Below are positions 13,935 to 25,643 of a stretch of DNA of 64,000 bases, piece by piece (positions within the stretch are counted from its first letter, which is position 1; every line of letters starts with the position of its first letter). The position numbers and the translations under genes are program-made. The notes beneath the pieces were generated by a model. It saw only the letters and a program-made list of their open reading frames with translations. It did not search any database and was not told where the DNA came from. This DNA is from Pseudomonas oryzihabitans (lineage in GTDB: Bacteria; Pseudomonadota; Gammaproteobacteria; Pseudomonadales; Pseudomonadaceae): NCBI RefSeq assembly GCF_024652905.1, contig NZ_CP102428.1, positions 1,748,501-1,812,500 on the forward strand. The letters run 5' to 3'.

Positions 13935-14021
13935 ATGACCCACCCTCAGGCCCCATCCCGGCGCCAGGCCGGACGCTGCCCTTCCTTCCCGCTCCTGCAG
14001 GCCGCGGGGTATCGCCCATGA
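13935..14021 (+). CDS. Leader peptide of the mms-type operon, 28 aa, ends Arg-Pro-UGA
   Basis: This short ORF lies between the promoter region and the acyl-CoA synthetase gene. Its 28 codons begin Met-Thr-His-Pro and end Gly-Tyr-Arg-Pro, with a UGA stop at 14019-14021 overlapping the ATG (14018) of the synthetase as ATGA. The Shine-Dalgarno for the synthetase (GCGGGG) is inside its last codons. It aligns over its length with a 27-codon ORF in the same position before bkdA1: M1, H3, P4, Q11, P16, P19, L20 and the final G-X-R-P are shared. The Arg-Pro-stop ending resembles the TnaC arrest peptide. I infer a regulatory leader peptide, possibly ligand-sensing; there is no direct proof of translation. 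Confidence 0.65.
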   Translation: MTHPQAPSRRQAGRCPSFPLLQAAGYRP

Positions 14022-15751
14022 CGGCCGGCGACGCCTTCCGCGCAGCGCGCGACTTCCTGCTGCGCCATCGCACCGACTACGCCACTGCCGTCCGCGATTT
14101 TCGCTGGCCGCAACTGGAACACTTCAACTGGGCGCTGGATCATTTCGATCGCCTGGCCGAGGAGCATGCCGGTCCGGCACTGTGGCGACTCGACGCCGAA
14201 GGTCGCGAAGAGCGCTACAGCTTCGCCGAGCTGCGCCAGGCCTCGAATCGCACCGCCAACTTCCTGCGGGCCCAGGGCGTGCGGCGCGGCGAACGCATCC
14301 TGGTGATGCTGGGCAACGAGGTGGCGCTGTGGGAGACGCTGCTCGGTGCCTTCAAGCTGGGTGCCGTGGTGGTGCCCGCCACCACCTTGCTCAGTGATGC
14401 CGATCTGCAGGATCGGGTGCAGCGCGGGCGCATCGCCCATCTGGTGGTGGGCAGCGCCCATACGGAGCGTTGCGCCAGTCTGGATCCGGGCCTTACCCGG
14501 ATCTGCGTCGGGTCGCCGGTGGCCGGTTGGCAGCCCTATGCACCGGGCGCCTGCGCCAGCGACTTCCTGCCGGACGGCCCTACCCTCGCCACGGATCCGC
14601 TGCTGCTCTATTTCACCTCGGGGACCACCTCGCGACCCAAGCTGGTCCTGCACAGCCACAGCAGCTATCCAGTCGGGCACCTGTCGACCCTCTACTGGAT
14701 CGGCCTGCAGCCAGGCGACGTACACCTCAACATCTCCTCCCCAGGCTGGGCCAAGCATGCCTGGAGTTGCGTCTTCGCCCCCTGGAATGCCGGTGCCTGC
14801 GTGTTCATCCATGACGTGCCGCGCTTCAAGCCCCAGGCGCTGCTGGAGGTGCTGGCGCGCTATCCCGTCACCAGTCTCTGCGCGCCGCCCACGGTGTGGC
14901 GCATGCTGATCCAGGAGGACCTTGCCGCCTATCGCGAGCGGCTGCAGCTGCGGGAGCTGGTCGGCGCCGGCGAGCCGCTCAATCCGGAGATCATCGACAG
15001 CCTGCAGGCGGCCTGGGGGCTGACCCTGAGAGATGGTTTCGGCCAGTCGGAGACCACCGCCCTGGTAGGCAATACCCCGGGCCAGCCGCTCAAGCCGGGC
15101 TCCATGGGTCGTCCGCTGCCAGGGTGCCACGTCGAGTTGCTGGATGCCGATGGCCAGCCGGGCAACGACGGCGAGGTGGCCCTGTCGCTGCAGCCGCGCC
15201 CCGCCGGGTTGATGCTGGGCTACGAGGACAGTCCGGAGAAAACCGCCGAGGTGATGCGGGACGGCCACTACCGCACCGGCGATACCGCGGTGCGTGATGC
15301 CGAGGGCTACATCACCTTCGTCGGGCGCGCCGATGACGTCTTCAAGTCGGCGGACTACCGCATCAGCCCCTTCGAACTGGAAAGCGCCCTGATCGAGCAC
15401 CCGGCCGTGATGGAAGTGGCCGTGGTGCCGAGCCCCGACCCCTTGCGCCTCAATGTACCCAAGGCCTTCGTCATCCTGGCCGCCGGCCACGCGCCTTCGC
15501 CTGAACTCGCGCAGGAGCTGCTCGGCTTCGCCCGTGGCTGCCTGTCCCCCTACAAGCGAGTACGCCGCCTGCAATTCGTCGGCGAACTGCCCAAGACGCT
15601 GTCCGGCAAGATCCGCCGCATCGAGCTGCGCCTGGGCGAGGCACAGCGCCGCGCGGCTGGCACAGCCGACCTCCACGACTATGCCGAAGAAGACTTCGCC
15701 AACCACCCTGCCCCGGCCTCCGTTGCCACCGCCCAGGAATCCCTGTCATGA
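14018..15751 (+). CDS. Medium-chain-type acyl-CoA synthetase (AMP-forming)
   Basis: This 577-residue adenylate-forming enzyme should activate a carboxylic acid to its CoA ester. The ATP-binding P-loop [11 protein letters not shown] is at 198-208, DGFGQSET and YRTGDTA motifs follow, and the C-terminal catalytic lysine lies in [10 protein letters not shown]. It opens the valine operon, with its start overlapping the leader ORF stop and its stop overlapping mmsA (ATGA). A comparable synthetase gene lies by mmsAB in P. aeruginosa. The substrate may be isobutyrate, propionate or another short branched acid (inference). Confidence 0.88.
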
Positions 15752-17262
15752 CCCAGACCGCCATCAAAGACGTGCCGCTGCTGATCGACGGCCAATTCGT
15801 CACCTCCACCAGCCGCGAAGGCCGCGAAGTGATCAACCCGGCCACCCAGGAGGTGCTGGCGCGGGTGCCCTTCGCCACCACTGAGGAGGTACAGCGCGCC
15901 GTGGCCAGTGCCAAGGCGGCCTTCGCCACCTGGCGCAAGACGCCCATCGGCGCCCGGGCACGCATCTTCCTGCGCTACCAGCAGCTGATCCGCGAACACA
16001 TGAGCGAACTGGCCGCCCTGCTCACCGCCGAGCAGGGCAAGACCCTGGCCGACGCCGAGGGCGATGTCTTCCGCGGCCTGGAGGTAGTGGAGCACGCCGC
16101 GGCCATCGGCAATCTGCAACTGGGCGAACTGGCCAACAACGTCGCCAGCGGGGTGGACACCTATACGCTGCTGCAACCCCTGGGCGTCTGCGCCGGCATC
16201 ACCCCCTTCAACTTCCCGGCGATGATTCCGCTGTGGATGTTTCCCATGGCCATCGCCTGCGGCAATACCTTCGTCCTCAAGCCCTCGGAGCAGGATCCGC
16301 TGGTGACCATGCGCCTGGCCGAGCTGGCGCTGGAAGCCGGGGTACCGCCCGGGGTGCTCAACGTGGTCCATGGCGGACCGGCGGTGGTGGACGCCCTCTG
16401 CGATCACCCGGATATCAAGGCGCTGTCCTTTGTCGGCTCGACCCGCGTCGGCACCCATGTCTATCGCCGCGCCAGCGAAGCCGGCAAGCGCGTGCAGTGC
16501 ATGATGGGCGCCAAGAACCATGCGGTGGTGATGCCCGATGCGCCCCGCGAACAGACCCTGGCCAACCTGGTGGGCGCCGCCTTCGGCGCGGCGGGTCAGC
16601 GCTGCATGGCGGTCTCGGTGGTGGTGCTGGTGGGTGAAGCCAACAGCTGGGTGCCGGACCTGGTGGCCAAGGCGCGCAGCCTCAAGGTGGGTGCGGGTCA
16701 CGAGCACGGCACCGATGTCGGCCCGCTGATCTCCTGCCAGGCCCTGGACCGGGTCAGCGGCCTGATCGAGCGCGGGCTGAGCGAAGGCGCGACCCTGGAG
16801 CTGGACGGCCGCAACATCCAGGTCGAGCGCTACGAGAAGGGCAATTTCGTCGGCCCGACGCTGTTCTCCGGGGTGACCACCGACATGACCCTGTATCGCG
16901 AAGAGCTGTTCGGGCCGGTGCTCTGCGTGATGCACGCGGCCACCCTCGACGAGGCCATCGCCCTGATCAACGCCAACCCCAATGGCAACGGCGTCGCCCT
17001 CTTCACCCGCTCCGGCGCCGCGGCCCGCCGCTTCCAGGAAGACATCGACGTCGGCCAGGTTGGCATCAACGTGCCCATCCCGGTGCCGGTGCCGCTGTTC
17101 TCCTTCAGCGGTTCGCGCGCCTCCAAGCTGGGCGACCTGGGGCCCTACGGCAAGCAGGCGGTGCTCTTCTATACCCAGACCAAGACCATCACCACGCGCT
17201 GGCCCGACGAGCAGGACGTCGGCGGCGCCGGGGTCGTCAACACCACCATCACCCTCAAGTAA
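15748..17262 (+). CDS. mmsA: Methylmalonate-semialdehyde dehydrogenase (CoA-acylating)
   Basis: MmsA oxidises methylmalonate semialdehyde to propionyl-CoA, using NAD and CoA, in valine degradation. The 504 residues have the aldehyde-dehydrogenase fold with the catalytic cysteine C286 in GQRCMAVS. The [12 protein letters not shown] and [11 protein letters not shown] segments are typical of the CoA-acylating branch. The start overlaps the preceding synthetase stop by four bases, so translation is coupled. mmsB follows after 13 bases. Confidence 0.95.
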
Positions 17263-17275
17263 GGGAGACGCCAGC

Positions 17276-25416: not shown

Positions 25417-25532
25417 GGTGCAAAACCTCTACTGTTGTTCTTGTAGAGAGTTCAATAGCACCAAACGACCCTGCTGCCCACCTCCAAATTGCGGCAAAAC
25501 GGCTAGCAGAGCCGGCCTATACTCAGGTGACC

Positions 25533-25540
25533 AATAACAA
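25533..25540 (+). promoter_or_regulatory. Hfq/Crc-type CA motif before the bkd leader ORF
   Basis: AATAACAA fits AAnAAnAA exactly and continues GAA. It lies 19 bases upstream of the bkd leader ORF and just after a TATACT -10-like hexamer (25518-25523). Crc is known to repress the bkd system in P. putida, which supports a functional site. Confidence 0.6.
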
Positions 25541-25559
25541 GAATGCCGAGGCCTCCACC

Positions 25560-25643
25560 ATGTGGCACCCTGCATCGCACCCGGACGGCCAACCCGTCCT
25601 GCGACCCGCCCGCCCCCTTACCTACCTGGGGGGTCGGCCATGA
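25560..25643 (+). CDS. Leader peptide of the bkd operon, 27 aa, ends Arg-Pro-UGA
   Basis: This short ORF starts 8 bases after GAGG and encodes 27 residues beginning Met-Trp-His-Pro and ending Gly-Gly-Arg-Pro. Its UGA stop (25641-25643) overlaps the bkdA1 ATG (25640) as ATGA, and its Gly-Gly codons (GGGGGT) are the Shine-Dalgarno for bkdA1. It aligns without gaps to residue 20 with the leader before the mms-type operon (M1, H3, P4, Q11, P16, P19, L20) and shares the final G-X-R-P. It is Pro- and Arg-rich. I infer a coupled, possibly arrest-type regulatory leader peptide. Confidence 0.65.

Follow-up and report, generated by a model that had tools for sequence, protein, structure and literature searches.

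Short leader reading frames before the acs-mmsAB and bkd operons of Pseudomonas oryzihabitans as probable carriers of Crc-type catabolite repression

The stretch of DNA analysed here (the window, 64,000 nucleotides (nt) in full) is G000:C1:1748501-1812500 within the 5.2 Mb genome of Pseudomonas oryzihabitans. It harbours an isobutyrate/valine operon that starts with an acyl-CoA synthetase gene (acs-mmsAB) and a branched-chain keto-acid operon (bkd), and the subject of this text is the short open reading frame (ORF) that precedes each of them. An earlier reading, made from the letters alone (the sequence-only reading), had reported the two ORFs, the ATGA overlaps by which they run into the first enzyme genes, and an upstream TATACT and AAnAAnAA at both loci. 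Translation and inspection of the sequence showed all of these to be present. The features concerned are the following.

13856..13861, plus strand: TATACT, putative -10 element of acs-mmsAB, from the sequence
13911..13921, plus strand: AACAACAATAA, CA motif of the Hfq/Crc type (AAnAAnAA), present as AAnAAnAA in 10/10 genus genomes
13935..14021, plus strand: leader ORF 1, 28 codons, ATGA overlap with the acs start, from translation and genus alignment
14018..15751, plus strand: AMP-binding acyl-CoA synthetase gene (acs), first enzyme gene, PF00501 and PF13193
25518..25523, plus strand: TATACT, putative -10 element of bkd, aligned in 10/10 genus genomes
25533..25543, plus strand: AATAACAAGAA, CA motif of the Hfq/Crc type (AAnAAnAA), present as AAnAAnAA in 10/10 genus genomes
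25548..25551, plus strand: GAGG, resembling a Shine-Dalgarno sequence for leader ORF 2, invariant in the genus alignment
25560..25643, plus strand: leader ORF 2, 27 codons, ATGA overlap with the bkdA1 start, from translation and genus alignment
25610..25637, plus strand: hairpin of 25610-25619 with 25628-25637, in which the bkdA1 Shine-Dalgarno sequence pairs with the leader end, from predicted folds
25640-26872, plus strand: bkdA1, matching a 2-oxo-acid dehydrogenase E1 alpha model under its cut-off

The CA motif ends 13 nt before the leader ATG on the acs side and 16 nt before it on the bkd side, and the ATGA overlaps occupy 14018-14021 and 25640-25643, respectively. A consensus scan of the acs-mmsAB promoter region yielded no sigma-70 -35/-10 pair. 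The leader peptides have no Pfam matches and the leaders match no known RNA family at gathering scores, the only such matches in the window being three transfer RNAs.

Thirteen genomes of the genus were examined, ten of which harbour both operons; close matches to both first genes are absent from G002-G004. The bkd leader consists of 27 codons and ends in ATGA in all ten genomes, and the acs leader has 28 codons with ATGA in nine. In the tenth (G010) a 1-nt deletion shifts the frame of the acs leader, which then stops 11 nt inside the gene, and the overlap persists. Conservation of the reading frame in relatives, on which the sequence-only reading depended, was thus found at both loci.

A wider comparison was made among 398 genomes of the family. 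A close acs gene was found in 52 of these, and 50 upstream regions were read (G069 and G307 were left out; in G016 an ATG lying in frame 12 nt above the first in-frame start detected was taken as the acs start). The start codon behind the CA motif turned out to be the enzyme's own start in 24 of the 50 loci, as GTG in one of them (G024). In 12 loci it is an ATG that opens a leader ending in ATGA: nine of these belong to the genus of the source genome, two to g5 (21 and 22 codons) and one to g14 (G330, 23 codons). The leader overlaps acs by 11 nt in two further loci (G010, G142) and is separate from the gene in five, which brings the loci where this start opens a leader ORF to 19/50. In two loci (G345 and G267; L221, L222) the ATG lies in frame with acs and would give an N-terminal extension; three loci have no such ATG and in two the gene start was not located. 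In most acs loci, whether of the direct or the leader type, TATACT starts 62-82 nt before the start codon behind the CA motif. Four loci have it at 41, 50, 103 and 115 nt, and in the two loci of g5 it was not found. By eye, the acs leaders of different genera have no recognisable common sequence. The simplest reading of these arrangements would be a fixed initiation module, able to start either the enzyme or a leader.

At the bkd locus a close bkdA1 was found in 165 of the 398 genomes. Sixty-four upstream regions, non-random picks from the listed matches, were read: 10 from this genus and 54 from others (G030 was left out, its contig ending there). A different leader was found in 30 of the 54 other-genus loci, namely in 24 of the 25 read in g8, two in g11 and four in g14. 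These leaders start with MSDV, count 22-42 codons, stand behind TATACT and an A-rich run in 30/30 cases, and stop 24-46 nt upstream of bkdA1. At or just after the stop, 29 of the 30 carry TGATC. The distance from the leader ATG to this sequence takes eight distinct values, of which seven are multiples of three; in the genomes with the out-of-phase eighth (G227, G378) a TGA located 11 nt earlier terminates the leader. The spacers from stop to bkdA1 have 10 distinct lengths, with phases divided 4:3:3. For the phase bias a binomial probability of ~0.007 was calculated, with one class as reference and if the classes are independent. Stops in the other two frames of these 30 leaders were disregarded as evidence, as they are already contained in the invariant ATGAGTGA start. 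No leader was found in the remaining 24 of the 54 loci, 14 of which have AAnAAnAA 5-40 nt before bkdA1 itself. All 30 MSDV leaders contain a Pro-Pro pair (e.g. L168, L151, L169), mostly 7-14 codons before the stop, of which the third codon bases vary (in G074 the automated pick lies earlier than the aligned pair); this may possibly be a ribosome pause site.

One of the genomes read, G125, connects these leaders to published work. Its Crc differs in 1 of 259 residues from the Crc chain of PDB 4jg3 and it has AAAAACAAAA at -195 to -186 of bkdA1; this near-identity and this position suggest that G125 is P. aeruginosa or a sister species. In P. aeruginosa AAAAACAAAA was located 187 nt upstream of bkdA1, and its effect on bkdA1 translation was called questionable in a 2012 report (PMC3480352). 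In G125 a bkd leader of 42 codons starts at -170, 15 nt after AAAAACAAAA.

The AAnAAnAA motif, treated as a side feature in the sequence-only reading, is most likely the regulatory core of both loci. Near a translation start this sequence is the CA motif of Crc control, which is bound by Hfq together with Crc, as stated in two studies (PMC3480352, PMC6422490). The source genome encodes Hfq, Crc (525.7 bits to PDB 4jg3) and CrcZ (272.1 bits). A second CrcZ-like RNA lies at G000:C1:1415001-1415251 (L233) and scores 66.4 bits, under the Rfam cut-off; we take it to be perhaps of the CrcY/CrcX type. From the motif and the published targets it is proposed that Hfq and Crc would bind the CA motif before the leader start and keep ribosomes off the leader. 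On poor carbon sources CrcZ would go up, Hfq and Crc would be released and the leader would be translated. The anatomy of the loci further suggests that a ribosome stopping at the leader UGA would restart at the AUG with which the enzyme gene overlaps it and that, at bkd, a ribosome translating the leader would also open the hairpin over the bkdA1 Shine-Dalgarno sequence. The leader peptide itself would be disposable. Judged from the sequence, both ORFs are probably leader cistrons that pass carbon catabolite repression on to the operon behind them, by a presumed translational coupling and a presumed action of Crc. More tentatively, it is suggested that such leaders are interchangeable, sequence-free adaptors: the module of promoter box, CA motif and start codon could be moved from the enzyme onto a coupling leader, and this may have happened repeatedly, in the isobutyrate/valine operon as well as in bkd, the bkd of the P. 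aeruginosa group included. This would explain control of bkdA1 by a CA motif near -190.

Local folds pair the leader end with the bkdA1 Shine-Dalgarno region in 10/10 genus genomes. Across these genomes 79 of 80 pair cells of the hairpin are standard. Its paired cells together with its covariation score were reached by 9 of 500 shuffles, in a test in which related sequences can exceed such shuffles. Only a single pair has changes on both sides, a result that 263 of 500 shuffles also reach, and one slid register nearly equals the covariation score. Before the acs start in the window there is no more than a short G run. Around the acs CA motif CTGCT and AGCAG (13902-13928) would pair into a small stem whose loop contains the motif; this stem is unproven by sequence change, since 4 of its 6 predicted pairs are invariant in 10/10 genomes. 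A terminator-like site on the minus strand (13947-13921), of a kind of which 0.3 is expected by chance, overlaps it.

Several results weigh against the proposed role of the leaders. As a chance sample 1.66 Mb of the same genome was used, window included, with 609 operon-first genes (called genes of at least 300 bases with at least 110 bases of free space upstream). A leader, taken as an ATG ORF of 8-70 codons ending in ATGA, precedes 46 of these 609 genes (7.6%). A CA motif next to the gene's own start was found for 16 of the 609, and if the two were independent ~1.2 genes with motif plus leader (46 x 16/609) would be expected. Three cases with AAnAAnAA 3-32 nt before such a leader were found: acs, bkd and one other, a doubtful case before a 3.4 kb GTG gene call. 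With ~1.2 expected by chance the bare count of three is not extreme, so that conservation and comparison have to carry the case; it is notable that the two clear cases both concern branched-chain operons that are linked and have conserved leaders. When alignment columns were permuted, all frames were still open in 29% (bkd, 10 sequences) and 23% (acs, 9 sequences) of the permutations, open frames arising by chance because G+C content is high, and an open frame as proof of translation was rejected as too weak. A strict AAnAAnAA stands before 14 of the 30 bkd leaders of other genera, and an imperfect run before 16. Furthermore, bkdA1 has a G-rich Shine-Dalgarno sequence of its own that is kept in the genus. 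Pairing of the enzyme Shine-Dalgarno sequences exceeds the genome median in 16 of 20 cases, equals it in one and falls below it in three (28th to 99th percentile among 500 sampled genes), and neither leader RNA has unusual stability (z-scores of -0.89 and +1.22). For P. aeruginosa, one study reports that a translational fusion of bkdA1 rose only slightly without Crc and shows that Crc targets bkdR, and its authors favour the bkdR route on reporter evidence (PMC3480352). Part of the control of bkd may thus run through bkdR, and both routes may be at work.

The results on chance openness bear on the possibility of incidental ORFs: as control signals the CA motif and promoter would be real, the frames would not be translated to any purpose, and Hfq/Crc would act otherwise, by mRNA decay or a general ribosome block. 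That no peptide constraint was detected (see below) and that many orthologous loci yielded no leader also fit this explanation. However, the bkd leader keeps its exact length in 10/10 genomes despite a pairwise DNA difference of 0.22 (22% of sites) in its second half, and the acs leader keeps its length in 9/10 with a difference of 0.38 (38%) in the second half among those nine. In the other-genus bkd leaders the phase is kept while the spacers drift. Moreover, a CA motif lying ~96 nt before the enzyme start could hardly be put to use without initiation beside the motif. Incidental ORFs are on balance considered unlikely, though they are a serious alternative.

A role for the leaders through their peptide or codons, by attenuation or stalling in response to branched-chain amino acids, was suggested by the nature of both operons and by the Pro-Pro pair that the other-genus bkd leaders keep in 30/30 cases with varying codons. 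In amino-acid attenuation leaders of the trp, ilv and leu type a short ORF precedes an amino-acid pathway operon. Unlike these, the present leaders have no regulatory codon run: leader 1 contains 2 Leu and no Val or Ile, and leader 2 contains 1 Val and 3 Leu without a run. Nor was any terminator-like site found on the plus strand in the two stretches scanned (13790-14100 and 25400-25720), and attenuation was rejected on these two grounds. The Pro-Pro pair occurs in 0/10 of the bkd leaders of this genus. Substitution patterns argue in the same direction. A synonymous bias, for which the sequence-only reading had proposed a test, was not detected: the ratio of nonsynonymous to synonymous polymorphism (pN/pS) is 0.97 for the bkd leader and 0.77 for the acs leader (9 genomes, G010 left out), compared to 0.07 and 0.12 for gene stretches, and 72% and 22% of 300 column permutations, respectively, gave values at or below those observed. 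The first half of the bkd leader (pairwise DNA difference 0.057) has a pN/pS of 0.31 on few changes; the first half of the acs leader differs by 0.19 among the nine genomes. A 33-codon set of 19 other-genus bkd leaders gave a pN/pS of 0.78, with a third of 60 permutations as low. No selection on the leader peptide sequence was detected in the genus, and on this evolutionary evidence the peptide appears irrelevant. Action through peptide or codons is very improbable.

Of the family of coupled leader peptides that the sequence-only reading had put forward, the two leaders with their conserved frame and ATGA, the valine and branched-chain keto-acid operons and the common control motif were borne out. 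The relatedness of the peptides was not, as several of the common residues drift, pN/pS is near 1 and, at acs, other genera have leaders that seem unrelated or have none. In the source genome the ungapped alignment of both leaders has 7/20 identities (residue-shuffle P 0.007, or 0.00014 when the final four residues are added, a comparison picked after looking), and in the other nine genomes 4 to 6 of 20. Of the residues named as shared, M1 and H3 do not vary in either leader over the ten genomes, Q11 is kept in 8/10 acs and 10/10 bkd leaders and P16 in 7/10 and 10/10. P4 (5/10 and 10/10), P19 (6/10 and 2/10) and L20 (1/10 and 6/10) are not kept in both. The proposed common C-terminal Gly-X-Arg-Pro did not hold either: 0 to 2 of the last four residues match in the other nine genomes, and of the ten genomes only the source genome has Gly as the fourth-last residue of the bkd leader. 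Peptide homology between the two leaders was rejected, being contradicted by the congeners, and one peptide family conserved for its sequence is hardly credible. Leaders that couple translation to the enzyme gene are likely; the explanation as a peptide family fails.

Production of the enzyme as a longer protein from the leader start, by frameshifting at ATGA, is suggested by the in-frame extensions in G345 and G267 and has next to no probability, given that leader C-termini are unconserved and that other-genus enzymes start near the equivalent residue without an extension.

The remaining genes of both operons, and their neighbours, are listed below.

12853..13809, minus strand: divergent LysR-type regulator upstream of the acs operon, PF00126 and PF03466
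15748-17262, plus strand: mmsA, NCBIfam match above cut-off
17276-18172, plus strand: mmsB, NCBIfam match above cut-off
18169-19221, plus strand: 3-hydroxyisobutyryl-CoA hydrolase gene, NCBIfam match above cut-off
19233-20384, plus strand: acyl-CoA dehydrogenase gene, last of the acs operon, sub-cut-off models only
24955..25416, minus strand: divergent Lrp/AsnC-type regulator, bkdR-like, upstream of the bkd operon, PF01037 and PF13404
26877-27935, plus strand: bkdA2, E1 beta model, under cut-off
27937-29229, plus strand: bkdB, E2 model, under cut-off
29232-30614, plus strand: lpdV, lipoamide dehydrogenase, TIGR01350, the sole bkd-operon match above cut-off

The models for the mmsA/mmsB/hydrolase set are TIGR01722, TIGR01692 and NF004127. 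The best NCBIfam model for acs is the MbcS acyl-CoA synthetase, which scores under its model cut-off. The bkd gene names are putative and were assigned from gene order and family. A gene for an AraC-type regulator at 30611-31630 overlaps lpdV by 4 bases, as if it were a member of the bkd operon.

If Crc targets are looked for as CA motifs near annotated starts, operons gated by a leader would be missed or dismissed. If the proposed role holds, leaders carrying repression would provide a simple test for the puzzle of bkdA1 in P. aeruginosa, and other targets might be found likewise. The loci compared here would also form a natural series for the evolution of coupling, from direct start via in-frame extension and overlapping leader to separate leader. 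In the open-licence literature searched, as far as its text was available, no description of these leaders was found.

The present loci resemble direct Hfq/Crc targets such as amiE, acsA and P. putida bkdA1, in which an A-rich AAnAAnAA is found beside the translation start of a catabolic operon (PMC3480352, PMC6422490). They differ in that the motif of the direct targets lies at the enzyme gene, whereas here it lies at a leader ORF. The nearest proven case of coupling is cbrX-cbrA of P. putida, with a predicted Crc site before cbrX; translation of cbrX is required for cbrA and the sequence of its peptide is not (PMC6591292). The source genome has its own cbrX-cbrA at G000:C1:3288819-3288995 (L253), so named because it lies ahead of a CbrA-like gene and CrcZ; no AAnAAnAA was seen there in the 90 nt before cbrX. 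As described in that report, cbrX-cbrA shares with the present loci a predicted Hfq/Crc site before a short ORF of which the stop overlaps the next gene. However, cbrX encodes 58 residues, has a 17-nt overlap in the source genome and precedes a sensor kinase gene, while the present leaders encode 27-28 residues with a 4-nt overlap. What is new here is a variant form of Crc-gated translational coupling, as proposed above, in which the short leaders precede catabolic operons and, unlike cbrX, can be missing in relatives.

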